Source: Heligmosomoides polygyrus polygyrus (lineage: Eukaryota; Nematoda; Chromadorea; Rhabditida; Heligmosomidae). From it: a stretch of 64,000 bases of DNA. The translations under genes and the position numbers were made by a program. Location: NCBI GenBank assembly GCA_947396885.1, contig OX377203.1, positions 1,302,001 to 1,366,000 on the forward strand. The letters run 5' to 3'. Below, one piece after another: positions 15,193 through 60,335 of the stretch (its first letter is position 1; each line of letters starts with the position of its first letter). The notes beneath the pieces are model-generated. The model did no database searches and was not told the DNA's origin. It saw only the letters and a program-made list of their open reading frames with translations.

Positions 15193-15214
15193 CTCAAACT
15201 TGGGTAACTAAACC
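15193..15214 (-). repeat. SL1 spliced-leader copy 1 (21/22)
   Basis: On the minus strand the nematode SL1 sequence (GGTTTA.TTACCCAAGTTTG then AG) is present with one change at the seventh base (A to G). After it comes GATTGGGACG, not the SL RNA continuation GTAAAC. Confidence 0.9.
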
Positions 15215-15578
15215 AATTTATTAAAGAGTAATAACACGATTTAACAAGGAATCAGGTTCTGCAGCAAAAATGACGGAAATTGTAAAAGTGACAAAATGCG
15301 AGCAAGTAAAACGGTCATCGGCGGGGTCGAACGGTCGTCGGCGGCGTAGAATGCCCTCTCGTTGTTTAGGCGGAGTTCTTATACAGAAGCACGCGGTTTC
15401 TGATGCAGAGCGCGATAAGCCTATGCTTCTTTAGCGCGGCCCTTTCATCGCTGAGCTAAGTTCAGTAGTTCAGTTCACTTTAATGCATGTGTGCTTCTCT
15501 TCTTCACTGAAGCGTTGAATAAAGGTTCATCCGAAGAAGATCGCGAATCGAATCATTTGATGTTGCATCCGATCAAAT

Positions 15579-15652
15579 GTGCCGGTGGTGTAATGGCGTA
15601 GAGTCTTCCCGCCTAGTCAGCAGGAGGAGCGGGTTCGAGTCCCGCCTGGCGC
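15579..15652 (+). repeat. tRNA-like element with pairing acceptor arms
   Basis: GTGCCGG at 15579-15585 can pair (with G-U pairs) with CTGGCGC at about 15646-15652. The T arm GCGGGTTCGAGTCCCGC is perfect. The anticodon stem does not fold well, so it may be a tRNA pseudogene or SINE head. It belongs to the same group as 760-850. Confidence 0.55.
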
Positions 15653-15768
15653 TAGAGTTTCGATCGCAGCAGGCTTCTGATCGCTTTCCCTAATCCTTCC
15701 TCCTCATCCAACATTTTTCATTATTCATTCTCTAAATTCCAATATCTTACCCTATTCAAAGCGTGATA

Positions 15769-16015
15769 GGCCGCGCGGTAGCTTAGTCGGAGGAAGCGCC
15801 GGCTGCCGCGAGCACCCTGATTCGAGGCTATTGGTTCGGGTTTTCCCTAGACCAATCAAGGCTTTCCTTCAGGCATGGTGAATTTGTACTAGACTTCTAT
15901 TTTTCTATTCCACTTCTATACTGACGTCTATTGGGTGACCGACACCCTATGTCATTGTTCAGATGTTCCTTAGAAGTAGAATGCGCGGTGTACACCTCCG
16001 CAAGGAGGGAATGTG
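15769..16015 (+). mobile_element. SINE copy 8, degenerate
   Basis: GCCGCGCGGTAGCTTAGTCG and the GAGGAAGCGCCGGCTG head are recognisable. The middle is rearranged before TTAGAAGTAGAATGCGCGG. Confidence 0.7.
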
Positions 16016-16249
16016 GATCAGACACTTGCTAGTAGGTGCTTCAGACTTCGATAGACGTGCTTATCCGACGACGTAGAATAAGTATCTTAGTTCTTTATTT
16101 CCTTTTTGCTTTTGCAGATGAAAAATTTGTGAACTACGATTTGCAACAGGATTTCAGCGTTTCCTTCACAATCCTTATCTTCCACCATCCTTATCTTCCA
16201 CGTTTGTTGAAGTGGAATCCACTTTGAATGGTAATGGAATACGCATGTC

Positions 16250-16640
16250 GAATTTGCTTCCGAAGCGTTTTGAAGTTACTCCACGGCAGAAGAGCTCGTT
16301 CTGTCAACACTCGAACCCGGGGGACTCAAATTTCATTCCGCCGACGCAGCGGCGTAGGTTGGCTCGGCAGAAGCAGCGCGAGTCGTGCTCAGTCGTCGAT
16401 TGGGCTTAGTTGAACTCGACTCGGCCCTTTGAGTGGAGTCGAGAGCCTCTTCGTCCGTTCAGAAACGTCGTCGTCGTCGTCGGAGCGACGCAGACGTGCG
16501 CCTACGGGAAGTCATGTGGCCGGCCGGCGACTCGTTTGGCTTTCCACGGGCGTCGATATGCGCTTATTCGGTCGTTAGGACTTCTTGTTGTCAGTGCTCT
16601 TCTAGGCTCGCTCAGACTTCGTCGATAAGTCTCCACTCCA
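16250..16640. other. CpG-rich unassigned block
   Basis: GC- and CG-rich sequence (CGTCGTCGTCGTCGGAGCG near 16467-16485) unlike its AT-rich neighbours. Open frames exist in two frames but show no domain. It could be an old MITE, a promoter or an untranslated exon. Confidence 0.3.
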
Positions 16641-16865
16641 TTGGGTTGCTTTGGAAGGGCTTTCTCCTGAGTCGTTCAAATCGCTACCCTGTAATTCATC
16701 TCGATTTTATGCGCTTTTTATACAATTTTCATGTCAACTTGGACTCTTTTCAAATGAAATTGTAAGCTGTTCTAAGCTGGCTTTAAAACTTTTGAAGTCA
16801 ATGCGAACTCTTCCAAATCAGGTGAGCTTCTTCTGCATTAAACTAAAGGCTCACCATAAAAGTTA
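16640..16865. repeat. AT-rich interspersed repeat fragment
   Basis: TGCGAACTCTTCCAAATCA with GGTGAGCTTCTTCTGCATTA at 16802-16840 is repeated at about 23570-23615. Confidence 0.6.
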
Positions 16866-17158
16866 AAAGGATAAAGGATAAAGGACGGCGTTACTCAATC
16901 TCTTTTGGGATGCGCCACGTATTCTCCTTCTACGGGATGTCGTGGAGGTGAGATGAATGCGTATTTGGCCATACAATGACTTGCGGTGGCCAGCCGATGA
17001 ACAAGTCAGCGCTTTATCCTTCCCAGACAAGTCTGGTACCAATTCACGGACCCCGGAGAGATGGAAGGCTTGGTTGGCCTGGGCGGGAAATCCGAACCAG
17101 GAACATGGTATCGGGTGCACGCGACAGTCGGCGCCTCTTCCGACTGCGCTACTACACC
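16866..17158 (-). mobile_element. SINE copy 9 with 13-bp target duplication
   Basis: A full-length copy in reverse. ACCATAAAAGTTA at 16853-16865 and again at 17172-17184 flanks it, as expected for LINE-driven insertion. Confidence 0.95.
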
Positions 17159-17238
17159 CTACCATAAAAGTACCATAAAAGTTAGAATAATTTTTTGTCC
17201 ACGGAAAACTTTAGTATGCCTTGCTTTGAAGCTTTGTT

Positions 17239-17316
<78 letters not shown>

Positions 17317-17317
17317 T
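17239..17317. repeat. (TAA)n microsatellite
   Basis: About 26 uninterrupted TAA units lie between two oppositely oriented SINE copies. The poly-Tyr and poly-Leu open frames reading through it are artefacts. Confidence 0.98.
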
Positions 17318-17331
17318 CATTACCACGTGTA

Positions 17332-17622
17332 GGGTGCACGTAGCGCAGTCGGACAAGGCGCCGGCTGTCGCGTGCACCCGATATCAGGTTCCTGGTTCGG
17401 ATTTCCCGCCCAGGCCAACCAAGCCTTCCATCCCTCCGGGGTCGGTGAATTGGTACCAGACTCCTCTGGGAAGGATAAAGCGCTGACTTGTTTATCGGCT
17501 GGTCACCGCAAGTCATTGTATGGCCAAATACGCATTCAAATCGCCTCCACGACATACCGTAGAAGTAGAATGCATGGCGCATCCCAAAAAGTATTAAGTA
17601 CCGCCGTCCTTTATCCTTTATT
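17332..17622 (+). mobile_element. SINE copy 10
   Basis: Full length with the head GGGTGCACGTAGCGCAGTCG and tail CCTTTATCCTTTATTCC. It is oriented opposite to copy 9, so the two could fold into a 270-bp duplex around the TAA tract. Confidence 0.9.
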
Positions 17623-17639
17623 CCCACGTATAAGACAAT

Positions 17640-18110
17640 TGTGAGAGAAGTGAACAACGGAACACAAATCTAAGAAAAGAAAAACGGAAAGAGACGCAAT
17701 CGCTTTAAGCATAAGAATAGTTTTCACTTTCGTTTTCAAAGGTTTTTTAAATAGTTTTTCATTTCACTTTACAGTATGTGAAATGAAAAATGAAGTTTTT
17801 ATAAAATTTCTAAGCAGTGGAAAGTTTCAAAAGATTTTTGAAACTTTCCATTGCTTGGAAATTTTATTTAAAAAAAACTTTATTTTGTTGAGGAAAATAT
17901 TAGTTTAAAGATTGCTTTGAAGAGCAGCAAGGGGCCATTTCTTTTGGTGCCAAAAGAGAGACTGCGCCATGCCTTCTTCCAAGAAACGATCTTGTTTCGG
18001 CGATTTTTCATCGATTGATAGGAAAACTTCTGTTTGCATGGATCTTGACATCTCTTGACGATACAACAAAAAGAACTATAAAACAACTGCATGCGCTCAT
18101 TTAGATTATG
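17640..18110. repeat. AT-rich interspersed repeat
   Basis: It contains an internal inverted repeat (TTTTATAAAATTTCTAAGCA then GTGGAAAGTTTCA against TGAAACTTTCCATTGCTTGG then AAATTTTA, about 17798-17870) and the shared GACTGCGCCATGC block at 17960. Confidence 0.65.
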
Positions 18111-18254
18111 CCTCCTGTAAGGAGGGTTACACTATCAACCAAATAAATAGCACGACGAGCTTTTCGAGTGCATGGCGAGATCTGTTCTTTTAATGCGCTG
18201 TGTAATTGCTTCTTTGCAGTGCTTTAAAGACAATTTGTAATTGATTACACATTG

Positions 18255-18495
18255 CGTGCATTCCGAATCGAGGGTTCTTGTTTCCGGTCCCGCCCAGGCG
18301 AAGCAAGCCGTCCATGGTCCGTGGTAGGTGAATTGCTACCGTATCTACTTGTCTGGGATAATAACACACTGTTTATCTACAATCCTGCCACCGCATTTCA
18401 TTCATTCTATACGCTACATACGTATTTTAGCGGTATTCTGTAGAAGTAGAATGCGTGGCGCCTTCCAAATAGGGACTGATTAACGCTGACTGTAA
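18255..18495 (+). mobile_element. SINE copy 11, degenerate
   Basis: The head is lost. CGCCCAGGCGAAGCAAGCC, the TCTACTTGTCTGGGA region and GTAGAAGTAGAATGCGTGGC remain. Confidence 0.7.
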
Positions 18496-18499
18496 TCCT

Positions 18500-18825: not shown

Positions 18826-18828
18826 CGA

Positions 18829-18850
18829 GGTTTAATTACCCAAGTTTGAG
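18829..18850 (+). repeat. SL1 spliced-leader copy 2 (22/22, perfect)
   Basis: All 22 bases of nematode SL1 are present on the plus strand, followed by GTTTCGAAGAACGCGACAAC. The flanks GGCGAG before and CGACAACGCC..ATTAGCTGCA after also flank copy 3, so both belong to one repeat unit. Confidence 0.95.
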
Positions 18851-18943
18851 GTTTCGAAGAACGCGACAACGCCGAAACATTAGCTGCAGTAAAGTATATT
18901 AGCAGCAATCTTGATTCAACTGAACAAATATTTCAAGAGAATA

Positions 18944-19020: not shown

Positions 19021-19046
19021 TAGGCAGATTGCAGACACGTCTGGCA

Positions 19047-22275: not shown

Positions 22276-22379
22276 TTTATCACTATTTTTATTCGCTTAA
22301 AATGTTTGTTCCTTTGAGCCATCATTGTTGCAAAGACTTATTGCAGCTAATCTTTTGGCGTTGTCGTGTCCTGCGCAGC

Positions 22380-22401
22380 CTCAAACTTGGGTAATTAAAT
22401 C
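22380..22401 (-). repeat. SL1 spliced-leader copy 3 (21/22)
   Basis: Antisense on the plus strand, one mismatch near the 5' end of SL1. Reading the minus strand, GGCGA precedes it and ACACGACAACGCC..ATTAGCTGCA follows, as at copy 2. Confidence 0.9.
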
Positions 22402-43100: not shown

Positions 43101-46100
43101 TGAATCGTTGACGAGCCTATCATTTGCAGGTCTCACCATCAGAATCCGATGGGAGGCCTACCTAACTTTTGACGACTTGTACGAGAGTCGGCCGCTGTAA
43201 TATTTGAATTAGACTCCATGATTGCACGGCATTTTTCCACTTTGTGCTCTGGGCAACGCCATCTTGCTGGTTCCTCTCTGCGTGACCGTGGTGGAGTGTT
43301 CCTCATGTTCTCGTACGGCCTAAACCAGACCGGCGCTAGACTCAATTGCCACACAGTTTCTACCTAGTAACTAAATCTATCGTGAAATCGCTTCATAATC
43401 AGATAGCGTAGTGTAGAGAGCATCGGCCTCAAACTTGGGTAATTGAACCCTGCATATTTATCGAGCGTAAATGATGTGTTAAATTAGAGAGATTGCGTGG
43501 AGACATTCTTGTCAAGTGGGCATCAACCTGCTTCATTCCTCACACTACGGAAGCTACTAGAGTTACATGCATTTAATTGCAGTGCGATTAGTTACAAATG
43601 ACTCGCGCAATGCTAGAGTACAACTTGTGGCTTACCTACACACAAGAAATTAGACGTAGTCAAGTCTCTTGGAGGTTTGAATGCACAAGTAAGTTAATTT
43701 GGAACTCCTATTGGGATAGAAGGAGGTTGATGGATGGACGTATCTGTCTAAAATTTTCTGACAACGAGATGGATCGGCAGCGGAAATGTATCTGTGGATA
43801 AAGCATTGATTTGGCGGATGAGTTGGCAACGGGCCAGGCTCGTTGCGTCGGGTCAGAATTCAGCGGCGGAGCAAAACCCTCGCTTTGGCGGTAAATGTTC
43901 TCAGACACGCTAGCCAGGAAGCATTCAAGTCGAAACTTGCCGCTGATTTCTTCCGCCGCGCGTTCATGAATCGCGGGTAAGTGGGTGGTGGAGGTAGATT
44001 TTACACTTACCGGCCGGTAAGTCATCCATGAATCCGTGCCGAGGTCTCGGAGGCTTATGTTAGGGCAGGAAGAACAGTGGAATCGCATAGGAGGGAACGA
44101 AGCCGGACGTTCTTCGTCTTCTTCACGACTTCTTTGACGCTCTTGAAACCTTCAAAAACGCTCGTTTCCTCCTGCTCAGCTCTGGCGCTAGGTCATTGGC
44201 CATATTGACTTCGCGACCCAGATAGACGTAGCTGGAGCATTCGAAGATGTTCGTTCCGTTGAGCGAGAATGGGGCATCAGAAACTCGTACGTTCCTCATA
44301 AATATCGTCTTCGTAAGATTCAGCAGCAGTCCAACGTCGGCCGGCATTCGTACCACTTTGCCAATACTCGCTGTTATGAGCACGATGTCGTCGGCCAAGC
44401 GTGGATGGCGGATTGGCCGGCCGTCGATCTTCCCTCCACGTCTTCCCGCTCTAGATCGCACATGACGTTTTCGAAGATAGCGCTGAAGAGCTTCGGGGAT
44501 ATGGTATCCCCTTGCCGAACCACTCTCTTCACACTGACGACGACCTGCTCTGCCACTTTCTTCCACAGTACTTGTTTTGCTGTGAAATACGATTCTGTAT
44601 TTGGCTTGAGATGGGGTTTATGACCCACTTTAGGCTGCACTTTCAAGCAACACGACTTCAAAGTATGATCGTACAGCTTGCTCTACAGGGCTCGCGGCCC
44701 GCACAGGTCTCGCACCCTCTCAGGAATGGCCTCTATCAAAGGGACTTTGGACATGCAAGGCAAACTGAAAATCACACATATACGCTGCAGTTCTTCGTTC
44801 TTAGCGGTGTAACACCGAAAGATTCCGCGCTGGGCTTCTTCCCGTTCACTCGCCATTACCAAGGGAATCCTTATTAGTTTCTTTTCCTCCGCTAAATTAG
44901 ACGGTAGTCACGCTTGAGCTCGGATTGTAAAAAAAATCCATCTGTAGAACTAGAGCCACGACGTTGTTGTTCAATGATGAGGCCTTGGTTGTGAGTCCTC
45001 TGTGCATCTCTCTCGAAGTAGTCTGAGTATTGAATCGGAACTCCCTGCTAAACCACGGCTTCTATTACCTTCCCAGTGCCGCCGGAATGCCTTCGAATGA
45101 CAAATTGTACTACGTCGAGTTTACTTTAGGCATAAAGGATGGCTATAAGGGAGAACATGGGCTTTAATTTATTCATTGGCTGCGATGTTTTTCACGGCCG
45201 CCCGTCAGGATGGTATGCATTAGAATTCCGAGCTTATAGCTGGCTGATGATAAATTGACCGGACGTGGCGAAACGAAGCTGAGCTGCTGGCGACGATGGG
45301 CGATTGGCTTGGATTTCCCTTGTTATTTTTAGGCGTAGAGCCAAATACGATGGTGCAGCCGAAAAGTTTGGAAGGTTATTTATTTATTTCATGCACTACA
45401 CGTGCGCCCAAACATGGATGACGGAAAATACAAAGTTAAGCATGATAACATCTAAAACTTAAAACACAAAACAGAGAAGCTAGCGTAACACGAGCGATAG
45501 AAAATGAACAGCCACTGCAGTATAAGACGAAAAAATGATAACTTCATCATTGATTTTCTTCTATCCTGTCAGCTACTGGCCAGACCAGCTCAAATAAGCG
45601 CACTAGTCCCATATTTTAATTAATCTAGTAGATTGAATTACAGCCAGCAGTGAAAGAGTGAATATAGAAATTGAGCATTGGAAGTGTTAAATACAGACTT
45701 CCACGCCAGGGTGCTCTAGCGCAACTGACAATGTTATTCCAGCGCGGGTGTATGGTAGCACCTCTTTAACACATTCGCGACGAGAGCGTTCTCGCGCACA
45801 ATGCGCGCGACGGCCCAGTGACTTGTTGGCGCGCGTGGGTGTGCACTTATTTGTGTGGACATCGTCCCTCGCGAGGTGTTACTTCCTGTAAGTAAATTTT
45901 AATCGATCTTTGGAAGATGATCTGAACATTGGTTTGTTACTATAATTTGGGAATTTGAAAAGAAAATCGAACAAAAATATCAAAAAAGAAAGTTCTTCCC
46001 AAGAATTCCCCGTCCACACATATGAGTGGACACCGTCCATCGCGCCCTCTTCGCTGTCCACTCATATGTGTGGACACTGTCGCGAATGAGTTAAGCTAAA

Positions 46101-49100
46101 TACGCACGTCGGGCACTGGCTCTGGGGAAGCAGCTGCATTGGATAAAAAAAGTAAGAAAGAATACTTCACTTCACAAAGCACTGCTGTGCCAGAGGACCT
46201 TTGAACACTAACCTCGTGTGTCATTCTACGGGCCCGAGATGACGGCTTAGCCAGACACTATAATGCGTAGAAGTTGTAACCTGGCTGGATAGGCAAAATG
46301 GAAATAAGAACTCAAAGGTAGCAGGGGCTGCAGTGGAGGAACAGGAGAATAAGGCAATAGAGAGTGTTAGCTAAGGAAAGCGATCTCGTCAACATATTCA
46401 AAGGAATTTAGTTTAGGGAAGTTTAGTGCTTGGCAATTTTCTGGTAAACATACATTTATGACTACAGTAGAATCCTATCCTTCAATTCTAAGCTTCATCC
46501 TTTTCTCGAATTGAGTTCGGTTTTCTTCCGGGATCAGTCATTTTCCCCACCTCGGGGTATTTTTGATTGATACGACGGCGGAATGAAGACAGCTACTCTA
46601 ATTTATGACCTGCGATTTGTCAAAGAAAAACTGAATTCACAATTAATAGCCAGCCTGAGGCGATGCAGTGAGGAGTGGTGCAAGGATAAGCCTGTAGCAT
46701 TACTGCGAGCTAAAATTGCTGCTCATGTCGAATTTGCCGAGCTTGAATAGTGACATAAGTCAAGCAGATTGCATCTGTGATACAGAACGCGATGGGAAGA
46801 GCGCCCATAGTTAGCCTAACCTTAGTTTCCAAAATGCCAATCACTCTCTTTAATCATTTAAAAAAATATTTCTTTTACATTTGTCAATATTTTGTTTGTG
46901 CCGCTCGAGGTTGTTACGGTGGATCTTTATTTGCCAGGCCTAACGTTTCGACGCTCCCGTCTTCTTCAGAGGCCTGAACGTGGTGCAACTATTGGATAAG
47001 CGACTTACCCCACCAAACGCTATCCCCACTCTAGCGGTTTCGCTTCCTTAGAGAAATCACCCCTGAAAATCCATTCAAAGAGGGATAAACTTGTGTTTGA
47101 TCCATCTATGGAGTGCTTTCACAACTCTCTGTTAGTACGACCGGGCGAATGGGACTTACTGTGCGGTGCTAGATAGTATACGATAAAGATAACGACCTGC
47201 ACATGCGCCCTTCCATTCTACAGCTCGCATTTTGGCACAAACGGCAGAAAATCGTTCGTAATTGACGGGCGTTCCTGGCGGTCGTTCATGCCAGGATTTC
47301 TTGCAAAAATCCAGAACGCTTCTATTGCCTTCCTTGCCGATATTTCTGTTTCTACTGCCAACACCTTGCACTTTATCTCAAAGTCGTTACCGTTATGCTG
47401 TTCAGCTCTGTGCTTTCCGAGAGGTGTTCTGATGTTACCACGTTGTTTATTAGCCAGGTGTTCTCTAATTCGAATGGCTAGTTTTCTCCCTGTTTCCCCT
47501 ATATATGTGGAGTTACATGCTTGGCTATACATCTGATAGACTGCTCCCTCCCGGGAACAATCTCCGACCTTGCCGTACGGACATGTAACACAACTTTCTG
47601 ATAAGCACTGGTTTTCGTAGAGCCTATTCCTGACCAGTTGGTGTTTAATATTGTCGTTTGGAATGTTGACTAAAACGACATCGTTTTGCAACTGGGTTTG
47701 AACTATGCTCCTTTGAATCGCAGCAGAGACTTTATCAGATATGAAAGGTATACATAAGGGTACCCTGTTATCACGTGGTCCATTTTGTCTGCGGGTAGAA
47801 CGAGCTCTGTGCTGACACCGTGGCGATACATAGCCATTTTGCATGGCTATTTTTCGCAGTGACTCTTGTCGCTCCTGTTCACCCGTACATATTTATTTAT
47901 TTATTTATTTATTTATTATATCTGCGACTTTTTGCCAAAGTGCTGGTGAATTGATTCGTTTTTGGTGGTTCACTAACGGATGCGTCTGTAGCGAATTGTA
48001 ATAAGTATTTTATTACTTCACAACTATCAGAGCACAACGCAAATAATATCTCATAGCAGTTTATATACGGAATTCCTAGAGCAGGAGCCTAGAAGTATGG
48101 CATATATTGGTCAGGGAGGCTGATAACCTCTAGTCTTAAAAGGGTGTCCCGCGGCTAGAGTGTAGTATTTGTGCATTATCTTATTTACCTTCTTGCGGTA
48201 TCGTTAGGTCATACCTGTAGATGCTATGCAACGATGCTTATCTTATATTGTTCACCTAGACGTGTTATCATTCATACCGCTTTGCTCTATATTGTTATAT
48301 AATATCATGCATTTATTAGGTTGTCCCATAAGTCCCCGCCGTTTTTTTTTCAACGATTCACTGCATTTCGCCGGCGATCTCTTGCATAGCGCTGCACAGC
48401 TTTCCAAAGACAATGATTTGCTCTATCAGAGCATGCATTGCTTTTCTTTTTTCTTCATGAATTTTGTCAATTTTTAGGTCGTTGAAGTGAAAAGTGAAAA
48501 AGTGAAAAAGTAGCCATTTGCGCACTTGTTCTCTCCGCTTAGGTTTGTAATTTTTTGCGCAGTTTTTTGTAGCATTTGGAAGAAAATGTGCTGTACTACA
48601 ATAATATGTGTTGGACCTATTTTCTCACTTGCCCTTTGTTGATTTTTAGACCATCAAATTGGGAATTCCGACTTTTCCGTCCGAATTTTTACCAAAGCTC
48701 CGTTTCTGTGGTTGGACTTTTTTGCTTGGTGTTATATGTCGTTTGGAAGAGGATGTCTTGCTCAGTAAGAATTTGTGTCACGTTTATTAGCTCACGCTGA
48801 TTTCTGTCGAATATCAACAACTGAAGAAGGAGAAGGAGTTGTTGGTGAAGACGATTTTTCTCTTTTTGGCATTTTGTTGGAATTCAATAGAAATCAATAA
48901 ACGCAACACATAATCTTATAGAGAGAGACATCCTCTTCCGAATGACATATAACTCCAACCTAAATAGACCAACCACAGAGCAGGAGCTGTCGGCAAAAAT
49001 AACCATCCTCCTTCGGACGTCCCAATTTGATGACCTAAAAATCAACAAAGGACAAATGTGCAAATAGGACCAACACATATTCTTGTAGTACAGAACATTG

Positions 49101-52100
49101 TCTTCCAAATGCTATGAAAAACTGCGCAAAAAATTACAAACCTAAGCGGAGAGAACAAGTGCGCAAATGGCTACTTTTTCACTTTTCACTTTCCACTTTA
49201 ACGACCTAAAATTGGCAAAATTCATGATGAAAAAAGAAGTGCAATATATGTTCTGATAGAGCAAATCATTGTCTTTCGAAAGCTTTGCAGCGCTATGCAA
49301 GAGACCGCCGGCGAAATCTGCAGCGAATCGTTGAATAAAACGGCGGGGAATTATGGGACAACCTAATATATAATCAGATGTAACCCTAGTTGGGTATTCG
49401 CAACATCCTTCACACCACCATTAAAATCATGATGTTAGTGTCATCAGAGGCCCTAATAAACCACCTGTTCAAGTCGACGTTCTACGAGTTAGGGCAAAGT
49501 CAGTACCTGAAGAAGGCTGAGGACTTGCCGTTACTGATGGCTACCAATTTGGAGAAGGTCAAAAATTTGCGCATCACATCTCTTATCGATAATACGCTTT
49601 GAATTGTCTCCTGTGTGATAGGAACTGTAGTTCCACGTCCTTCCCAGCTAGGGTAGTCAGAAGTTTGAACTGTATGTTTCTAGCCGGTGATTAAGTCATC
49701 GCCTGGGTGTTTCGCCGTCGAACAATAAATTCGTTGTGGGTTGGGGGACAGTACTCCATCCGCCACATTCCCCTGACATAAACACTTCAGATTTATTGGC
49801 TAAGAAAGGTTACACAAAATTTGAAGGCATAAGTCGAGCGGTTGCCGACTTCGACTCCCAGCCTCCTCAGTCGCTTCGATGCTAAAAATACGCTCCGATG
49901 CTCTCCTGTCGACGACGTCGCCGACGTCGGTGACAAGTCGCAGCGTCAGCGACACTTCTCCGAAGTATAACATAGGCCTATGTTATACTTCGGCGACGCT
50001 GTTGTCGGCGACGTCGGCGGCAGTGTTACACGGGTTGCTACGCAGTGCGTAGCAGCCCGCGCAACACAGCGTCGCCGAAGTATAACATTGGCCATAGGCC
50101 TAAATGGAGTTATGGCAAAGCGGAGAAAACGTCGGTTTTTGCGTCTATTCCGCTCAAAAACGAAAAGATAGTATCGGTGTTGTATTTAATTTTCTTGTAA
50201 TTTCTGCATGGAGTAATTGCCCAAGTTTGGGGTTTAGTGTTCGTGTTCAGTGTCAATCGTTATTCGTTGGCATTCTGACTCTCGTATTAAGACTCGTGTG
50301 AACAAATTAAACTGATTCCGAATAGACTTAAAATTGGTTGTGGTCTTAAAGTGCTAAATGCGCACCTGTTTAGTTTAGCTATCAGGAAGAGGGAACTACT
50401 TGACAAGTGCAGTTTTCAAGTGAGGAGTGAAGAAAGGATTGAAATGACCCATTTAGGTTGTCGACGTCTATGATCTAGCGGCCTCTATAGGAAAGGATTT
50501 CGAGAAGATCATCGAACTTCATGGAAACGACTGTGTGCGCGGCATTATGCCGAAGGTACGGTTTGTCTTGTCGTAAGTGTACACTTGTATCGGCTTTGAT
50601 GGAACAAAGGAGTAGCACATCTTAGTCCTCCGTAAGGCCCCGTTTACACTTCCGACGCCGAGCGAGGCGACGGCATGTAAAGTGGCCAAATTGATCGATC
50701 GCGTCGCTCAATCAATATTGTCACTATACGTGGCGTCGCGTCGCTCGGCGTCGAAGTATAAACGGAGCCTAAGGCAGATTTTTAGGCTGTTTTAAGTGAA
50801 TGAATATGATAAAAAAGGAACTTTTAAGGTCATTTCGGCGCTGGAGACGCTGGAATCGCTAGCGAACAATAACGAACGGGAGAACGAGGAGATATTGTCG
50901 TTACAGAAGACCGTTGAACGACTCGAGAACGAAAAACAGGCTCGGCAATTGCAAACAGCAAAATTTGAAGAGGTACCGCATTTAGAAATGAGAAAATGAT
51001 AATGAATTACGAGCTCGAGACCCTCTAACCGGAAAATCTTGCGGATGTTTATGAAGAAATGGTGTTAAAAGCTCTTAAAATGTGGAGGAAAATTAGAACA
51101 AGCCAAGTGGCGAGGCGACTTTCCCGTGCTCACTTCTGGAAAATCGAAGCGAACCAGCCGTGCGCAGGTCGTTCGGTTTGGCGCGACTATCTCAAACTTG
51201 GGTAATTAAACTTTATTCACAAAACGTAACAAAAAATGCATATACATCTGCATATGCTAAACTAAGAGAGGGAGAAATGAAATGTGATTGTGAGATTGTG
51301 AGATGTGGTCCTTGTATATGACTAGTTGTACCGGATGCCTTAGAAACAGTCCGAATACGTATTGGTCCTATATAGTGAGTTGTGGTGACCAAGCGACAAA
51401 CAGGTCAATGTTTTATTTTTCCTGAAAAATTTGGATCCAATTACCGACTTTAAAAGAACGGAAGGCAGGGACGACAGCGGATAAGTTTGAAGGCCTTGTG
51501 GTCAACTACTGGTGAACTTTGTGGAGTGGCAGTTGTTGCTAGGAATTCACCGGCAGGTGACCAGATTTTCGTCCACTGGTGACCATCTTTCCTCCTGTAG
51601 TTCAGCAGGATTTTAAACAAGAATGTTCCGAATCTAATTTTCGTGCTACGTTTGCAATTTCGCTTCTACGCAATCACACAGATTGCGCCTCTTTTCACGT
51701 CTTCATCTTAGATCATAGCCCAAGTTCACCCACAGTAGGCCGCTAGCAGTTCAGATGAACATTCCCCACAGCTGAGACTGTTGTCCTACATAGGCGAATG
51801 AAGGGCTTGGTGTGGCTTGAGTGGGATCCAATGACCTGGGCTCAGGATGCACATTTCAACCGACGCCTGTTTTGACTACGCGCCCACAGTATGAAGTAAG
51901 CGGAGCTAGATTACCGCTCCTGTGTTCAGATTCTTGGGCGGAGTCAACGCAAAAGACCGCCGTTCTCACCGTATTCCTATATCTTCCTTCAAGGTGGCCT
52001 ATTCAAAAATTAAATGCTAGCATTCAACCTCAATGTTGTAGACCTATCCAATAGGTATCATCCAGTGGTTTTAGAAAGATATACAGGATGGCTGGAAAGT

Positions 52101-55100: not shown

Positions 55101-57278
55101 TGGAATGATTAGTGAATACGCATCCAGTGGAAAGGTACGATAGTAGAATGAAGAAGGAAGTAATGGAAGGGAGTCCTAGAAAAACAAACTAGACCAAGAC
55201 TGAACCTGGTTCCTTAGATCTGACGGCTTTTATGGACTCTTCAGAAGGGCTTGCCGCCTGCTGTGAGTTCCTCGGGCACTCTGTCCAGTGTGGTTTTGAG
55301 GTTCTAGGGCCGTTTCTGGCATATCAGCGAGAGCAGATCGTGGTCCTCCCCTGGATACCTTCCGCCACTTCATGCTGTTAACGAACACTTGCAGAATAGA
55401 CCGGTCACGGAAAATTTGACTAAAACGAGCTGGTTATGTTGCAGTGGAAATCTATCCATGTAATCTATTCCGGCTAGGAAGGACCAGACTTAAATGCTAC
55501 TCCCCTCTTTGCTCATCAGTAAATGAAGGGGAGGAACTGCTATAACTCACTTGGGAACAGCTTGTCGTTGAGGAATCACTCCAAATAGGGGACTAGTACG
55601 AGCTGGTTATGTTGCAGTGGAAATTTGTTGGTTTTTGCAAATACTGGCAGCAGGGCTGGGGTCGATGCTCTGCTGTATTCCTAGGCCCTCCAAGTCAGAG
55701 CTTTTCTGAATGAAGTTACTTCCGTCTTTCTAGTAAGTGTAAGCAGTTTACTCGTTGGTAAGGACAGGATGCGGGAGAAAATGTGGCACGCCATGTAGCG
55801 TCTTCTGTTTTATCCTACTATATATAAAGCAGCAAGCGTGCGTGTGTGCGTGTGTCACACTGTCCGTCCGTCCGTCACACTTGAGTTGGTGCGCGGCAGC
55901 CGAACACGTCGGCAACCGTGCATGGCGAGCCGTAGACGTGCCGAACATGTCGGCAACCGTGCATGGCGAGCCGCAGACGTGCCGAACATGTCGGCAACCG
56001 TGCATGGCGAGCCGCAGACGTGCCGAACACGTCGGCAACCTTGCATGGCGAGCCGTAGACGTGCCGAACACGTCGTCAACCGTGCATGGCGAGCCGTAGA
56101 CGTGCCGAACACGTCGGCAACCGTGCATGGCGAGCCGTAGACGTGCCGAACACGTCGGCAACCGTGCGTGGCGAGCCGCAGACGTGCCGAACACGTCGGC
56201 GGCACGAAACTTCGGCCCTGGGGGTAATCGAGGTCGCTGAACACGAATCTGAAGTCGACCAATCGATATCGATCGATATTATCGATTTTTTGAGGATGGC
56301 GCTCAAGTGGCACGAAACTTCGGCCCTGGGGTAATCGAGGTCGCTGAACACGAATCTGAAGTCGACCAATCGATATCGATCGATATTATCGATTTTTCGA
56401 GGATGGCGCTTAAGTGGCGCGAAACTTCGGCCCTGGGGTAATCGAGGTCGCTGAACACGAATCTGAAGTCGACCAATCGATATCGATCGATATTATCGAT
56501 TTTTTGAGGATGGCGCTCAAGTGGCCCGAAACTTCGGCTCTGGGGTAATTGAGATCTGACGTCGGATCAATCGATCCATCTCGATTAACATAAAAGTCAG
56601 AAGGCCTAGGGAAGAATAGGAAACCCGTAGCGGCCATAGCGTCCTATTGTCGAGGTTTGGGGGCGAAGCTCCCAACCAGTCGTAGGCGGCCGCTAGGCCG
56701 ACGCGCGACTGTTATTGTGTTATTTTTATTTTTGATATCACTGACGCAATTTCCATCAGGCATCTGCAGTTCAAGTGAAAACAGCAGACATCACAGTGCT
56801 TGGGTACTGTTTTTATTCGCGTATAATGTGCGCGCTCCATCCCCCCCCCCCCCCCAACTAATAAGAGCTCAACGATTCTATTGTTCTGTGTGTTTCAGGT
56901 TGGAGAGGACTGAAGAGGCAAACATTCAGTTAAGGCGTATGCTTAGCGACACCGATAGGGTTTGTAAAGACCTTCAGCAAGCCAATCAAGTAAGTGTGGA
57001 ATGTTTCATAAGATTTTGTGGTGGATGCGTTAATATAGCAGCCATCTTCACTAAGAATCGGTCGTCTTCCCCTGAGCACTCATCTGAAAAGGCTTTGATT
57101 AGTGCTAAAGGTTGGCTCACACGTTCCAGATTGACGATGAGCCGCGGTTCACTCTAGCCGAACTTCGCGAGGTACTGCAAGAGAAGAATGTGCTAAAAGG
57201 TCGCGTGATGGAGCTCGAAGAAGAACTGGAGACGCTCCGCCCCGGACGGAAAGAACGGGAAAGAGACGACTTGCTCTG
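36979..57278 (+). CDS. rilp-1: RILP-like protein (RH1 - coiled coil - RH2), 8 exons, C-terminus not found
   Basis: RILP family proteins are Rab effectors. RH1 contacts motor machinery, and RH2 binds Rab GTPases (Rab7 for RILP; phosphorylated Rab8/Rab10 for RILPL1/2). Exons 36979-37131, 50457-50555, 50829-50972, 53503-53647, 53781-53896, 53965-54080, 56899-56989 and 57130-57278 join in phase throughout (about 337 codons). RH1 is seen at residues about 50-100 ([37 protein letters not shown]). Long coiled coils follow ([33 protein letters not shown]), then RH2 ([33 protein letters not shown]) with its basic residues. The VVDVYD box is made only when exon 1 (...HIT) is joined to exon 2 across a 13.3-kb intron, which strongly supports that join. 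If the donor at 57279 is not used, the frame stops at 57309. JIP3/JIP4 share RH1 but not this RH2 spacing, so RILPL is preferred. The C. elegans symbol is from homology. Confidence 0.87.
37132..39365. other. RILP-like intron 1, proximal part
   Basis: No exon was found. ATATCGATCGAC-type palindromes at about 37388, 37795 and 37834 cluster close to exon 1. Tandem-like phrases (CCGAACACGCCGCC, CCGAATACGCCTGCC, CCGAAGACGTCGTCC) at 37490-37600 may be a short minisatellite. AT-rich from 37920. Two diverged direct repeats of about 100 bp (GAAAGAGAAAGTGAAAA.., GTCAGAAGAAGTGGAGC.., TTCAGC..AATA) lie at 38783-38865 and 39174-39260. Confidence 0.45.
39368..39503 (+). mobile_element. SINE copy 29, 3' half
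   Basis: CAGACATGTTTTGGGAGGAT through CTGTAGAAGCAGAATCCGTG. Confidence 0.7.
39507..39805 (-). mobile_element. SINE copy 30 (well preserved)
   Basis: Full length in reverse, tail to tail with copy 29. It ends GCGCTACACGCGTCCG. Confidence 0.95.
40013..40190. mobile_element. MITE family A, best copy
   Basis: GGTACATGTCGCGAAATTGA and GTCTTCGCGACATATACC. GCAGCAT..GGTAGATGGGA is mirrored by TCCCATCTTCCGATGCTGC. Confidence 0.85.
40195..40670. other. AT-rich intron sequence
   Basis: No feature recognised. Confidence 0.3.
40672..41838 (-). mobile_element. RTE-type LINE, 5'-truncated, longest copy
   Basis: Inserted antisense in RILP-like intron 1. Reverse transcriptase motif A is seen as [18 protein letters not shown] near 41790, motif C as [16 protein letters not shown] near 41500, then [35 protein letters not shown] and a C-terminal [40 protein letters not shown]. 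An open stretch of 209 codons covers 40678-41307. Frameshifts are near 41310-41350 and 41600. The tail ACCTGTATCACCTGTCGTCC (plus strand) is at 40672. Dead. Confidence 0.92.
41840..42688. other. No feature recognised
   Basis: Intronic sequence without a recognised repeat or exon. Confidence 0.3.
42690..42958 (+). mobile_element. SINE copy 31, degenerate
   Basis: The head is weak (AGGCGCAGTAGAAGGAAGCA). CTTGGTTTGGGTCCCCTTTC and CCGTCGTTTATCTCTTTATC show the family. Confidence 0.65.
43428..43449 (-). repeat. SL1 spliced-leader copy 4 (21/22)
   Basis: Antisense on the plus strand, one mismatch near the SL1 5' end. The preceding plus-strand GCATCGGC equals the end of the tRNA-Gly antisense strand; this may be coincidence. 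Confidence 0.85.
43848..44038. mobile_element. Possible MITE, distantly like family B
   Basis: GGGTCAGAATTCAGCGGCGG at the left, CATCCATGAATCCGTGCC at the right, and CGCCGCTGATTTCTTCCGCC inside. Weak inverted pairing. Confidence 0.35.
44038..44690 (-). pseudogene. RTE LINE fragment with internal deletion
   Basis: The minus strand shows [18 protein letters not shown], then [20 protein letters not shown] (a conserved RT block), [39 protein letters not shown]. Its 3' coding end is missing. A further piece of the same reverse transcriptase lies at about 44940-45130. Confidence 0.85.
44940..45135 (-). pseudogene. RTE LINE fragment (upstream part)
   Basis: The plus strand reads GAGTCCTCTGTGCATCTCTC, CTGAGTATTGAATCGGAACT and CCGGAATGCCTTCGAATGAC. 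This parallels 41680-41790 of the longer copy with many changes, and may be the same insertion as 44038-44690 split by about 250 bp of other sequence. Confidence 0.65.
45135..45765. other. No feature recognised
   Basis: Intronic; a TTATTTATTTATTT stretch is at 45377. CATGCACTACACGTGCGCCC at 45401 is partly palindromic. Confidence 0.3.
45766..46094. mobile_element. piggyBac-like MITE (TTAA flanks)
   Basis: TTAA at 45766-45769 and 46091-46094 flanks inverted ends CACATTCGCGAC / GTCGCGAATGAG. Inside, GTGTGGACATCGTCCCTCGC near the left and a perfect inverted repeat GTCCACACATATGAGTGGAC / GTCCACTCATATGTGTGGAC at about 46012-46075. No transposase. TTAA duplication is the hallmark of the piggyBac superfamily. 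Confidence 0.8.
46095..46930. other. No feature recognised
   Basis: Intronic AT-rich sequence upstream of the hammerhead-like motif. Confidence 0.3.
46935..46976 (-). ncRNA. Hammerhead-ribozyme-like motif of a Penelope-like element
   Basis: Minus strand, 42 nt in order: stem I CAGGCCT paired with AGGCCTG (7 perfect pairs); core CUGAAGA, which fits CUGANGA; one extra A; stem II GACG-GGAG-CGTC; GAAA; a minimal stem III made by ACGT; then U at the expected cleavage position. PLEs are known to carry minimal type I hammerheads with very short stem III in their terminal repeats. It lies 240 bp downstream, in the same orientation, of a PLE endonuclease. The unpaired A before stem II may weaken it. 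Confidence 0.75.
47218..47844 (-). pseudogene. Penelope-like element, GIY-YIG endonuclease end
   Basis: An open frame of 208 codons, inserted antisense in the RILP-like intron 1. Residues 80-96 hold a Cys cluster ([17 protein letters not shown]), YQMY is at 103-106 and YIGET at 114-118 (the GIY-YIG pair), RIREH at 124-129 (catalytic Arg region), and [12 protein letters not shown] at 173-184 (catalytic Glu). The frame is intact over the whole endonuclease, but the reverse transcriptase expected upstream (above 47844) was not found, so the copy is 5'-truncated. The linker with CxxC before the endonuclease is typical of the Penelope/Neptune-type branch. Confidence 0.88.
47888..47922. repeat. (TTTA)n microsatellite
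   Basis: About eight units, next to the truncated 5' side of the PLE. Confidence 0.9.
48316..49366. mobile_element. 1.05-kb fold-back element with mariner-type ends
   Basis: The whole element is an inverted repeat. TTAGGTTGTCCCATAAGTCC at the left is mirrored by TTATGGGACAACCTAA at the right, and arms of about 480 bp can be followed block by block (CGGCGATCTCTTGCATAGCG / GCTATGCAAGAGACCGCCGG; CCATTTGCGCACTTGTTCTC / GAGAACAAGTGCGCAAATGG). Only about 100 bp in the middle (48790-48890) is unpaired. The ends TTAGGTTG..CCATAAGT and flanking TA are of mariner type. No transposase. Confidence 0.92.
49367..49895. other. No feature recognised
   Basis: A 70-codon open frame at 49390-49602 has no recognisable domain. 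Confidence 0.3.
49895..50093. mobile_element. MITE family C, full copy abutting a half copy
   Basis: The full copy is 49975-50093 (GGCCTATGTTATACTTCGGC ... GCCGAAGTATAACATTGGCC). A half copy at 49895-49978 shares its GGCC end, producing a head-to-head joint with one common terminus. Confidence 0.85.
50210..50231 (+). repeat. Possible degenerate SL1 copy (18/22)
   Basis: GGAGTAATTGCCCAAGTTTG then GG differs from SL1 at four positions. Reported because six better copies are present. Confidence 0.4.
50457..50555 (+). CDS. rilp-1: RILP-like exon 2 (RH1)
   Basis: Acceptor CCATTTAG, then [20 protein letters not shown] and [13 protein letters not shown], donor AAG|GTACGG. This is the RH1 signature. 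Confidence 0.92.
50636..50769. mobile_element. MITE family D, second copy
   Basis: GGCCCCGTTTACACTTCCGA and GTCGAAGTATAAACGGAGCC, arms CGCCGAGCGAGGCGAC / GTCGCGTCGCTCGGCG. It occupies the short RILP-like intron between exons 2 and 3. Confidence 0.92.
50829..50972 (+). CDS. rilp-1: RILP-like exon 3 (RH1 end, coiled coil)
   Basis: Acceptor CTTTTAAG, 48 codons: [37 protein letters not shown], ending KFEE, donor GAG|GTACCG. Heptad-rich. Confidence 0.9.
51191..51212 (-). repeat. SL1 spliced-leader copy 5 (21/22)
   Basis: Antisense on the plus strand. On the minus strand it is followed by ATAGTCGCGCC. It lies in RILP-like intron 3. Confidence 0.9.
51353..51480 (-). mobile_element. SINE copy 32, very degenerate
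   Basis: GTGGTGACCAAGCGACAAAC, AGGTCAATG, then GGATCCAATTACCGACTTT follow the family order. Confidence 0.55.
51760..51895 (-). mobile_element. SINE copy 33, very degenerate
   Basis: GAAGGGCTTGGTGTGGCTTG, GGATCCAATGACCTGGGCTC, and an end GACTACGCGCCCAC. Confidence 0.55.
52079..53140. mobile_element. Tc1-like fold-back element, copy 1
   Basis: Ends GCTGGAAAGTTCGGGCAATT and AATTGCCCGAACTTTTCAGC are inverted. The inverted arms are about 330 bp (52080-52430 and 52795-53140). The unique middle encodes on the plus strand the catalytic part of a Tc1/mariner-type transposase: [28 protein letters not shown] (second Asp), [13 protein letters not shown] (third Asp). Each arm contains the protein's C-terminus ([17 protein letters not shown]) fused to a segment reading [11 protein letters not shown]. 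The first catalytic Asp region and the N-terminus are missing. Confidence 0.85.
53141..53500. other. RILP-like intron 3, distal part
   Basis: No repeat recognised. It ends at the exon 4 acceptor. Confidence 0.4.
53503..53647 (+). CDS. rilp-1: RILP-like exon 4 (coiled coil)
   Basis: Acceptor [48 protein letters not shown], then a Thr/Ser linker. The donor A|GTGGGT at 53648 gives phase 1, which the next exon completes as Met. Confidence 0.85.
53781..53896 (+). CDS. rilp-1: RILP-like exon 5 (coiled coil)
   Basis: Acceptor [49 protein letters not shown]. The donor AAC|GTTGGT was chosen because it keeps phase 0 with exon 6. Confidence 0.85.
53965..54080 (+). CDS. rilp-1: RILP-like exon 6 (coiled coil)
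   Basis: Acceptor [48 protein letters not shown], phase 2 at AG|GTTCGC. It corresponds to the segment between RH1 and RH2 in RILPL1 that reads LIEQKVELE. Confidence 0.88.
54300..55640. repeat. LTR-like repeat, tandem diverged copies in intron 6
   Basis: A unit of about 500 bp is repeated about 2.5 times: AGCTTGTCGTTGAAGAATCA at 54556, 55040 and (with GAGG) 55558; GAACACTTGCAGAATA at 54859 and 55381; CCGCCACTTCATGCTGTTAA at 54837 and 55364. Parts match the inverted repeats at 60871-61600 (ACACAAATAAGACAAG, GCAAAGAGGAGA). It may be solo-LTR-like sequence; no coding part is seen. Confidence 0.65.
55895..56200. repeat. 41-bp minisatellite
   Basis: Seven to eight units of 41 bp, each with GACGTGCCGAACAYGTCGGC, AACCGTGCATGGCGAGCCG. 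The unit contains the near-palindrome CCGAACACGTCGG. It has no stop codons, so long open frames appear on both strands (100-152 codons); these are artefacts. Confidence 0.97.
56201..56545. repeat. 107-bp minisatellite with ATCGAT palindrome
   Basis: Three full units of 107-108 bp starting GGCACGAAACTTCGGCCCTG at 56201, 56309, 56416 and a fourth start at 56523. Each contains CAATCGATATCGATCGATAT. It directly follows the 41-bp array. Confidence 0.97.
56899..56989 (+). CDS. rilp-1: RILP-like exon 7 (coiled coil)
   Basis: Acceptor GTGTTTCAG completes an Arg codon, then [30 protein letters not shown], donor CAA|GTAAGT. Confidence 0.88.
57130..57278 (+). CDS. rilp-1: RILP-like exon 8 (RH2)
   Basis: Acceptor [48 protein letters not shown], then a charged tail. 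The donor-like CTCTG|GTGGGC suggests at least one more exon; otherwise translation stops at 57309. Confidence 0.9.
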
Positions 57279-57309
57279 GTGGGCTGTTATTCTTCTCAAA
57301 GCTACCTAA

Positions 57310-58420
57310 ATAAGTTGGTGGCGAGCGAAAGACTTGCAGCGGTCTTGAAAGAGCTCATGAGCCAAGGTTTACAACATAATGTCGTGTATGAAAGGAAGCA
57401 GAAATAATCAGATACACTATGCGCGTCAGACGGGGTGGGGCAGCTTGTAGCTTTCTAGAGGTTAAGTGAAAGCTTCTTGCGAAACGAAAACATCATAATA
57501 TGCAGCAATCACTGCCATCAACATGATAGGAACAAAAATATATCAGAAAATGAAAAGAGAAACGAACAGATCCTAATGAAAGAACTTGTTTAATAGGACT
57601 GTCCTAGTTAGATTCCAATATATCATGCCACTGCCGAGTGGCACCTGCGTACGGTGCCCTTTAGCACATGGCTTCTTGTTCAGGAGGTGCAAGAGAGCAA
57701 ATGGTCCGACAGAATGTTGAATTTTTATGTCGGTGCACTTGTTCCGTGGTGCAATTCTAAGTAGGTGAGAGAACTAGCAAGAGAAGGCCCTATAGGATAT
57801 AGCCAATCCTAATGCGAGTAAGCTAGTGGGGCCATTTCCCGCAGTTAATCTCCTTGACTGGTTCTGTGTAGAGAACAAAACTGCATGGTTGGTAATTCAG
57901 AATGTGCACCTACCCTTTTGTTGAAAAATGGCTATTACATTCATGTTCTCCACCTAGATGTGTTTATTTTCACTTTTGCAGTTCCTCACTAAGAAGGTTG
58001 GTCATCCGGAGATCCTTACTCTTGGCTTCATATTTGATTATTGAAATATAAAAATTCAATTCCTGCTGAAGAAGGTCACGCTGAAAAGGCCTACTCTTTC
58101 TCGCCGTTAATTGTAAAGTAAAGGGGATTCTTCACTGGAAATTCTCCCAAGGCAATTACATGCAATGAAAAGATCGTACAGATAGCCCATTGCGTCGTTT
58201 ACAACTGGCCATTTGCACTGACGCCGATTACTGACCTTCAGACTGCCAGTTTCTTGCAACAACGCATGCATCTATCTCCAAGGGGTACCCTTGGAGAAAC
58301 AGTCATGTGCGAAACGTCACAGCAATAGTACAATCGTGAGGAGAGACGGTTTTCGAAGAGTATTGCAGAACGAACCACTCGCGTCAAAGTGTTAACACCT
58401 CTAAAGGGTCGGGCACACTT
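57310..58420. other. Downstream of RILP-like exon 8, no feature
   Basis: A further C-terminal RILP exon was looked for and not identified. Unassigned, mixed composition. Confidence 0.3.
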
Positions 58421-58622
58421 CGCTGCCTTTGCTGTGGCAGCAATGGTTGCGAATGGCGTCAATCCGCCGCCTCTTTGAGTCGCAGCAAGAAATGCCGGGC
58501 GATATTTCTTACCTGCAGCCACAGAGAAGAGCGCGTGCGGGGAACTGCAACGTGCCCTACAAGCAGGCAACAAACGGCGTTGCTAAAAAGCGCGCGCTGC
58601 TGTTTGCTGCGGGCATCCTTTA

Positions 58623-58782
58623 GGCCCCTGTTATACTCCCGCGGGAGCTTCCGCGGATGGGCGGAAATCGCGTCGGGACCCCGCGCCGGGCCACTCGTCG
58701 CGGCTCGCCACGCCCGCCTCCGCCGTGCACCATTGGTCCGCGGATGTTCCGCGGATGCTCCCGCGGGAGTATAACAGAGGCC
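58623..58782. mobile_element. MITE family G (termini GGCCCCTGTTATACTCCCG)
   Basis: GGCCCCTGTTATACTCCCGC and GCGGGAGTATAACAGAGGCC. The inner GGGAGCTTCCGCGGATG / CATCCGCGGAACATCCGCGG pair partly. The centre is about 70% GC by eye. Confidence 0.9.
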
Positions 58783-58784
58783 TT

Positions 58785-59370
58785 AGCCGCGTGCACACTC
58801 CGCTGCGGCAGCCACGCTGAAGCATAGCGCCGAGGGGCGGAGTCACACTGCGGCAGCGAAGCCCGCAGCGAGGGGTGTGCACACTTCGCTGCTGCAGTGC
58901 TGCCGGCAGCGGCCGCAGCGACAGTGGCAGCGAGGAATGACCCGGGCATTCCTCACTGTCGCTGCGTGCGGCCGCGGCGCAGTTCAACAGTGCCGCAGTG
59001 TGGTGTGCGAGACCAGCTCCGCCCACATTCCACTGCCCGCTGCAAAGTGTGCATGCGGCTTTTGCGAAACAGCGTGCACCCTCTTTTGCTGCTAAAGCCG
59101 GGTTTGTTGCCACAGCAAAGGTGCTTGGGCCTTAAAGGGCTCCGCGTACATTTGCGGCAAAGCGGCGGCCTTATGCTTAACCATAGAGCAGGGACGCAGA
59201 GATTGCCGCTTGTTGCGAACGATGGCGTGCAGTGTCGTGCTGCAGCTGCACAATTTTAGACGCGATTTTGGGCGATGGCGACGGCAGCTGCGCCGCAACT
59301 GCAGCAGCGGCAATAATGATTCACATCATTACTGTCGCCGCCGCTGTTTTGCCGCTGGCAAGACTGCGTG
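58785..59370. repeat. GC-rich block of nested inverted repeats
   Basis: GTGTGCACACTTCGCTGCTG, GGCAGCGAGGAATGACCCGG mirrored by CCGGGCATTCCTCACTGTCG then CTGC, and GTGCACACTCCGCTGCGGCA with GTTGCCACAGCAAAGG and TTTGCTGTGGCAGCAA-like partners from 58430. Several small MITEs probably lie against each other. Open frames of 109-160 codons are composition artefacts. Confidence 0.6.
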
Positions 59371-59375
59371 GATAA

Positions 59376-59502
59376 GGGCCCGTTTATACTTCGACGCCGA
59401 GCGACGCGACGCCACGTATAGTGGCCACATTGAACGCGATTGATCAATTTGGGCACTTTACATGCCGTCGCGTCGCTCGGCGTCCGAAGTATAAACGGGG
59501 CC
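59376..59502. mobile_element. MITE family D, third copy
   Basis: GGGCCCGTTTATACTTCGAC and CCGAAGTATAAACGGGGCC. Arms GCCGAGCGACGCGACGCC / GCCGTCGCGTCGCTCGGC. Confidence 0.93.
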
Positions 59503-59524
59503 TAGCATACGCTGACAAGACTGT

Positions 59525-60335
59525 GTGTGGATAGCATATCGCTGCTATGCACCGATCAGAACATTGAGAGAGCGGTGCTCGGTCAAAGGGCAACGCAGAC
59601 GCAGAAGCTGATGCCCGAAGAGTGTCGGACTAGCTGACCGTTGCAAATGGCGGCGACGGCCCTCTGTCCCCTTCGCCCGCACCCGTTCTCTTGCATTTTT
59701 TATCCTTTATTTTTTACACACTTATTTCTGTGTGATTTATTCGAGGCAGGCCTCTCCTGGTAATCGACTCTTACTCACAGAATACGCAGATTAAGTGCCA
59801 TTTCTTGTATTATGCTTTCGTATTTGGCTTGGTAACTTCTATCATAGATGGGCCTTGCTACTCGTTACATACGTTGTGATCTACCGTGTCTTATTTGGTT
59901 TAATTACCCAAGTCTGAGGTAAACGCTGTAGTAGCAAGTCTGTCAGTGTTTGGTGGATTCGCATAACTCGATCGAAGTCTGCCGCTGAACTACCTTAGCC
60001 GTTTCCGCCCTGTGGTGCATCGGCCGGGATTCCCGAAGGATGCAAAGCCAAATAGGAAAGGGTAATACAAGAAATGGCACTTTATCTGTGTATTCAGTAA
60101 GTGAGAGTCGATTACTATTAGTGGCCTGCGTCAAAATAAATCACACAGAAATAAACGTGTAAAAAATTGAGAATAAAAACGTACGGGAACGGGTGCAGGT
60201 GCCGCCACTTGCGACGGTCAGCTGGTTCGATACTGTTCCGAGGGCTGGGCATCAGCTTCTGCGTCTGCGTTGCCCTTTGACCGAGCCCGCTCTCTCAAAG
60301 TTCTGATCGCTGCATAGCAGCGATGTAACTAGTCC
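59525..60335. repeat. Large palindrome with SL1 in its loop
   Basis: Arm 59525-59830 (GGTCAAAGGGCAACGCAGAC, GTGTGATTTATT, AAGTGCCATTTCTTGTATTA) is mirrored at 60045-60335 (AATACAAGAAATGGCACTTT, AATAAATCACAC, GTCTGCGTTGCCCTTTGACC). The loop of about 210 bp holds SL1 copy 6 and a tRNA-Gly-like antisense end. No coding sequence. Confidence 0.85.
59897..59918 (+). repeat. SL1 spliced-leader copy 6 (21/22) followed by GTAAAC
   Basis: The match has one T-to-C change at position 18 of SL1. It is the only copy followed by GGTAAAC, the donor sequence of SL RNA itself. No SL RNA stem-loops or Sm site were recognised after it. TGGTGCATCGGCCGGGATTC at 60013 resembles the antisense 3' end of tRNA-Gly. 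Confidence 0.85.

Follow-up and report, generated by a model that had tools for sequence, protein, structure and literature searches.

Spliced leader SL1 within long terminal repeats and at the front of mRNA copies in Heligmosomoides polygyrus polygyrus

The 22-nt spliced leader SL1 stands in the DNA of Heligmosomoides polygyrus polygyrus thousands of times, often within long terminal repeats (LTRs) and at the front of mRNAs copied back into the genome. The present analysis covers a stretch of 64,000 nucleotides (positions 1,302,001 to 1,366,000 of contig OX377203.1; the window hereafter) and the assembly to which it belongs. The largest class of SL1 copies is read as part of the LTRs of BEL/Pao-type retrotransposons, in which SL1 would form the front of the R region, captured from trans-spliced RNA and kept since; a probability of about 0.6 is given to this reading. 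It suggests that some elements adopted the host leader to serve as the start of the RNA that they make.

SL1 in the window and in the assembly

The six SL1 sites listed by a sequence-only reading of the window, and a weaker site at 50210, were all recovered with the same positions, strands and match counts (coordinates are those of the window):

15193..15214, minus strand: SL1, 21/22; presumed start of R in an LTR; AATAAA 8 bp upstream
18829..18850, plus strand: SL1, 22/22; short SL1 element (family A)
22380..22401, minus strand: SL1, 21/22; family A
43428..43449, minus strand: SL1, 21/22; possible worn LTR, with loose motifs only and a negative stricter motif and cluster test
51191..51212, minus strand: SL1, 21/22; AATAA directly upstream; class uncertain, no mark in the motif and cluster test
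59897..59918, plus strand: SL1, 21/22; in an LTR; followed by GTAAAC
50210..50231, plus strand: SL1-like site, 18/22; assigned to none of the classes

Two of the six sites lie clearly in LTRs, perhaps two more do so, and two belong to the short SL1 element. The 656.2-Mb assembly (1,130 contigs) was searched for SL1 on both strands with up to two mismatches, with the reversed pattern as control. The search gave 6,218 places (3,194 forward and 3,024 reverse), versus none for the reversed pattern. The density in the window, 6 per 64 kb, is about ten times the genome mean of about 0.6, and fewer than 1e-6 copies with up to one mismatch are expected by chance in 64 kb (an estimate), which bears out the earlier claim of a number far above chance.

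Classes of exact SL1 copies

The sample consisted of 100 exact SL1 places among the matches listed, all on one chromosome (C1) and chosen for exact SL1. Classes were set by clustering, motif tests and reading of the surrounding sequence. The LTR class holds 56 places (48 in clusters and 8 singletons), family A 14, SL1-tagged mRNA copies 8 and a further SL1 family 3 (L015, L034 and L056), with 19 in no class. Seven of the 56 LTR calls are weak, with one motif, likeness or pairing each (L033, L042, L043, L053, L054, L055 and L064), 6 of the 22 members of the largest LTR cluster form one tandem array (L026), and L061, which clustered with L053/L054, was counted outside all classes. The tRNA anticodon-complement motif CCGCGTGGCA was present at 27 of 106 sites versus 2.3% of random stretches, and the primer site at 10 of 106 versus 1.6% in the same kind of test; the motif CTGAACCACC was used in class assignment without a random control.

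The tandem array at L026:4001-5033 comprises six LTR pieces of SL1 plus GTAAAC at a spacing of about 200 bp. The three members of the further family have in common a hammerhead-like stretch, CTGATGAG..CGAAAC, about 100 bp downstream (by eye). GTAA stands directly after SL1 in 7 of 27 mRNA-copy or unclassed sites (L029, L037, L045, L057, L063, L069 and L082), which is above expectation.

SL1 within BEL/Pao-type LTRs

By its sequence features the LTR class is identified with BEL/Pao-type retrotransposons: it has same-strand pairs, 5-bp target duplications, tRNA-Gly primer sites, and gag and reverse transcriptase (RT) domains. Paired LTRs are present in both elements described on C1. In the first, L089, the two LTRs carry exact SL1 at the identical position; the LTR is about 815 bp long, with TGTCC on either side. 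The second has a 449-bp LTR with CACAC on either side, so that each element shows a 5-bp target site duplication (TSD). The primer site TGGTGCATCGG, which we take to belong to tRNA-Gly, begins 2 and 0 bp after the 5' LTR in the two elements. Identities within LTR pairs are 98.9-99.4%, 99.1%, 100% (over 384 bp) and 92.9%. Pieces of L089 match the Pfam families DUF1759 (5e-27) and RVT_1 (2e-9), both above cut-off, and L090 is matched by its RT piece at 73% and by its integrase piece at 67%.

The class in which SL1 is followed by GTAAAC is a repeat of about 325 bp. Of 13 copies, 4 have an exact 5-bp TSD and 2 have one with a single mismatch, while the remaining 7 are ambiguous or have lost an end; the TSD of L032 (TTCAC, by eye) is outside the exact count. 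These copies are taken as solo LTRs.

AATAAA is joined to SL1 at 1,015 places genome-wide (up to two mismatches over 28 bases). The 100 exact matches to this combination that were listed form 11 same-strand pairs within 12 kb and no opposite-strand pair, versus a random mean of 0.26 and maximum of 4; five of the 11 pairs are 7.4-7.7 kb apart. A poly(A) signal (AATAAA or ATTAAA) lies up to 17 bp upstream of SL1 or 3-6 bp downstream of it in 18 of the 38 LTR sites listed, and U5 and the primer site follow, so that R should begin near SL1.

The 25-base primer site occurs at 175 places in the genome with up to two mismatches, 72 of them exact. For a blind test, 20 exact primer sites were picked regardless of SL1 (17 on C1 and 3 on C13, omitting two adjacent C13 places, 3439266 and 3439350), and the 380 bp upstream were read. 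SL1 with up to two mismatches was found 70-161 bp upstream of the primer site in 5 of the 20, and the reversed SL1 control gave no match, with 7 mismatches at best. SL1 is therefore carried by only some of the lineages that use this primer.

Two LTRs of the window show the same order of parts:

15061..15192, minus strand: presumed U5 of the LTR at 15193; carries the CCGCGTGGCA motif
15036..15060 (C27:1317036-1317060), minus strand: primer binding site of the LTR at 15193; 25-mer complementary to a tRNA 3' end including CCA
59919..60012, plus strand: presumed U5 of the LTR at 59897
60013..60029, plus strand: primer binding site of the LTR at 59897; 17/17

The LTR at 59897 is 70% similar to L033 from -225 to +98. 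In the LTR class (e.g. L074, L010 and L059, and window positions 15061-15192) CCGCGTGGCA lies in U5, apart from the primer site. It is presumably the complement of the tRNA-Gly(GCC) anticodon arm, and U5 may possibly make a second contact with the primer tRNA there. A near full-length tRNA copy with CCA continues from the primer site of the LTR at 15193 (14995-15060, plus strand). It scored 30.9 bits with the Rfam tRNA model (14995-15057) and was not called by ARAGORN; the stretch looks like a copy of the entire primer tRNA.

Acquisition and retention of the leader

In the favoured account the genomic RNA of an ancestral element would have been trans-spliced to SL1. Reverse transcription to the first base of the leader, with first-strand transfer, would then have placed SL1 permanently between U3 and U5 of the LTR, where it would have been retained as the 5' leader of the element across many lineages with otherwise unalignable LTRs. 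SL1-bearing RNA would also have been the common raw material of the SL1-tagged mRNA copies and of the short SL1 element. An exact 5' boundary of SL1 in the LTR is what capture from a trans-spliced genomic RNA would leave. We infer that SL1 was captured by trans-splicing and has been kept by selection; on the simplest reading the element RNA would start at the first base of SL1.

Several observations weigh against this account. Of 20 lineage representatives 15 have GT right behind SL1, which capture by trans-splicing alone leaves unexplained. In the blind test 15 of the 20 primer sites had no SL1 upstream (9-12 mismatches at best). AATAAA near SL1 was rejected as a universal mark of the LTRs, the signal being restricted to the 18 of 38 sites. 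In L089 the aspartyl protease families and rve scored below the Pfam cut-off and one of five pieces had no match, and its RT and integrase pieces match nothing anywhere in the 64-kb window.

The GT favours a splice donor or the transcription of an encoded SL1. The promoter of the element could thus start at the encoded SL1 with no current trans-splicing; SL1 and GT would be a built-in first exon with its donor, and the RNAs would resemble host SL1 mRNAs. This is a serious competitor, put at somewhat less than even odds. Against it, the 38 LTR sites listed show no TATA box at a fixed spacing from SL1.

It is unlikely that every cycle instead brings a fresh round of SL1 trans-splicing, onto an AG within the encoded SL1 or at its end. 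The new leader would then anneal to SL1 at the 3' end of the RNA in the transfer step, and host SL RNA genes would renew R. Splicing at the inner AG would give a doubled TTTGAG. Two of the 158 fetched sites show such a doubling, both of them in the blind set, with no other suffix doubling of SL1 among the 158. Genome-wide it occurs at 29 places with up to one mismatch (6 exact, 12 with C at base 1, which are probably one lineage, and 11 other; none in the reversed control), and at most about 1.5 exact places are expected by chance (estimate from 6,218). However, slippage of six bases leaves an identical mark, and GAG is a poor acceptor in nematodes, which also counts against such splicing. Equally doubtful is an element lineage that replicates via host trans-splicing, the SL RNA supplying the 5' R in each cycle and the 3' SL1 receiving the first-strand transfer, by which the terminal repeat would be renewed from the host SL RNA genes.

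A single entry of SL1 into one LTR ancestor, with the leader carried unused ever since, is rated a little lower again. Retrotransposition copies any LTR sequence, used or not; against such a relic stands the exact 22-nt SL1 in LTR classes with unalignable flanks, in a sample that was chosen for exact SL1. Capture from trans-spliced RNA followed by retention is preferred here at the probability given above.

SL RNA genes

SL RNA genes of this genome have the form SL1|GTACTTTTAAG, with the donor GTACTT. In the gene units read (L129-L132) SL1 is followed by GTACTTTTAAGAT(C/T)CGACCC, with a Sm-like site, AAATTTTGG, recognized by eye; in L129 and L130, from an array on C13, 5S genes lie between the units on the opposite strand. 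The Rfam SL1 model gave at least 42 matches in the genome, all below the Rfam cut-off and about 40 of them in tandem on C13 with a period of about 1,117 bp; the count is a lower bound, as the search scored 50 candidates. The local gene form was found at 398 places at up to three mismatches, and SL1 plus GTAAAC at 996 places at up to two.

The GTAAAC class was considered as a set of SL RNA genes and rejected: a C. elegans-type SL RNA stretch has 0 places, and the real genes are of the GTACTT type. The sequence-only reading had taken GTAAAC after SL1 at 59897 for an SL RNA donor. This was mistaken, the local donor being GTACTT and a tRNA-Gly-type primer binding site standing at 60013.

That the SL1 sites in general are SL RNA genes or pseudogenes of them is extremely improbable and is refuted for most, since only 398 places match the local gene versus 6,218 SL1 places (about 6%), and the Rfam SL1 RNA model matched neither the window at the gathering score nor any of 17 other loci with E up to 1. 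The genome count thus lies far above the number of SL RNA genes (6,218 versus about 398), and the outcome that the sequence-only reading had named as refuting it did not occur.

SL1-tagged mRNA copies

Reverse transcription of SL1-bearing RNA is supported by the 8 of 100 exact places at which SL1 is joined straight to mRNA-like coding sequence. Pfam supports L044 (WD40, RACK1-like), L081 (zinc knuckle), L072 (TMA7) and L057 (ribosomal L38e). L045 (RPL29), L082 (RPL17), L058 (ALKBH6-like) and L097 (NEDD8) were named by eye from the translation, and Pfam gave no match for L082 and L058. Each of the eight has A or G directly behind SL1, as does sequence downstream of a splice acceptor. A search with TMA7 gave six matches, namely L072, three blocks on C39 (55 and 54 bp apart) and single partial blocks on C27 and C52. 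The SL1-bearing copy is contiguous, with the two gaps of the C39 locus lost; with the gaps taken as introns, this one case shows intron loss.

No TSDs of the mRNA copies were seen in the 500 bp searched downstream. Repeats of at least 9 bp were found at 6 of 81 sites versus 2.9 expected, all at repeat-family loci and none at retrocopies; target site duplications were seen at LTRs and, within that range, not at the mRNA copies. The earlier proposal of retroposed trans-spliced transcripts is supported in part: it fits the mRNA copies (8/100, and the loss of gaps in TMA7), but the largest class (56/100) consists of SL1 carried within LTRs.

The short SL1 element

Family A is about 110-130 nt long; its 5' end is SL1, after which come GCTCTGAAGAAGGCG..CGCCGAAACGTTAGCC and AATAAAG. 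The window contains two copies and a related coding fragment:

18829..18917, plus strand: family A copy; SL1 22/22; 77.5% to L028; clusters with family A
22320..22401, minus strand: family A copy; SL1 21/22; low end approximate; clusters with family A
47221..47892, minus strand: GIY-YIG endonuclease fragment; 56% identical over 163 residues to the Penelope-like open reading frame (ORF) of L024; above cut-off

Family A resembles the 3' end of Penelope-like elements. The likeness lies in L024, in which an ORF with RVT_1, and with a GIY-YIG match below cut-off, has a family A-like module downstream; the differences are the small size of family A, its SL1 at the 5' end, and the head-to-head palindromes formed by some copies, in which two SL1s meet at their 5' ends or close to them. 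RT and GIY-YIG coding would not fit into family A, and such an ORF was found only in L024, nearby and on the other strand. We infer that family A consists of SL1 fused to a Penelope-like 3' end and is mobilised by a Penelope-like element. In a shuffled-sequence test family A was unremarkable (z -0.64) and the L024 module strong (z -4.4). No hammerhead ribozyme family of Rfam was matched in 17 loci at E up to 1, and the hammerhead likeness of family A was judged by eye. Rfam miRNA families were tried on the palindromic copies and rejected, all scores being below the gathering scores.

Other features of the window

ARAGORN identified a tRNA-Thr (agt) gene at 15579-15653. A large-subunit rRNA fragment (119 bits) occupies 44560-44905 of the minus strand. 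The most frequent repeat in the window, about 290 bp long and containing GGGATGCGCCACGCATTCTACTTCTACGG, is present in many direct and inverted copies between 3887 and 39802. Two adjoining tandem arrays with units of 41 bp and 107 bp occupy 55899-56553.

Significance and comparison with known systems

The findings link spliced-leader trans-splicing to LTR retrotransposition and raise a testable question: LTR elements need a defined 5' R, yet their hosts swap the 5' ends of mRNAs. Genomic SL1 is no marker of SL RNA genes here, which calls for caution in leader-based transcript mapping.

No report of SL1 in nematode LTRs was found in the open-licence PMC literature. The profile of the BEL/Pao elements (Belpaoviridae, e.g. 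Ascaris Tas) names tRNA-Arg or tRNA-Gly as primer (PMC8742986). The elements described here agree with it in the LTR pair, the 5-bp target duplications, the tRNA-Gly-type primer site and the gag and RT domains; they differ in having a host spliced leader at the expected start of R, of which the profile makes no mention. C. elegans Cer1 is likewise a nematode LTR element with one SL1 trans-spliced RNA: its spliced 2.4-kb mRNA was reported with and without SL1, and the 8-kb RNA is not trans-spliced at that site (PMC3315495). In contrast to the present elements, SL1 in the LTR DNA is not mentioned in the part of that report that was available.

SL1 was also reported in satellite DNA of Meloidogyne, according to the accessible text (PMC9673304). 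In strongylid nematodes including Heligmosomoides, solo LTRs were described as a favoured source of exWAGO small RNAs, with no mention of a spliced leader or SL1 in the excerpt available (PMC13195028); from this preference, SL1-bearing LTRs might yield antisense-SL1 small RNAs.

Dinoflagellate retrogenes are tagged by relict spliced leaders, as far as the available portions of two reports go (PMC6050394, PMC12014239). That system belongs to another phylum with another leader, and leaders in LTRs are not mentioned in those portions. As at the 8 of 100 places described here, reverse-transcribed mRNAs there begin with a leader encoded in the DNA, and on the same partial sources the dinoflagellate relict leaders are the known precedent for the SL1-tagged mRNA copies.

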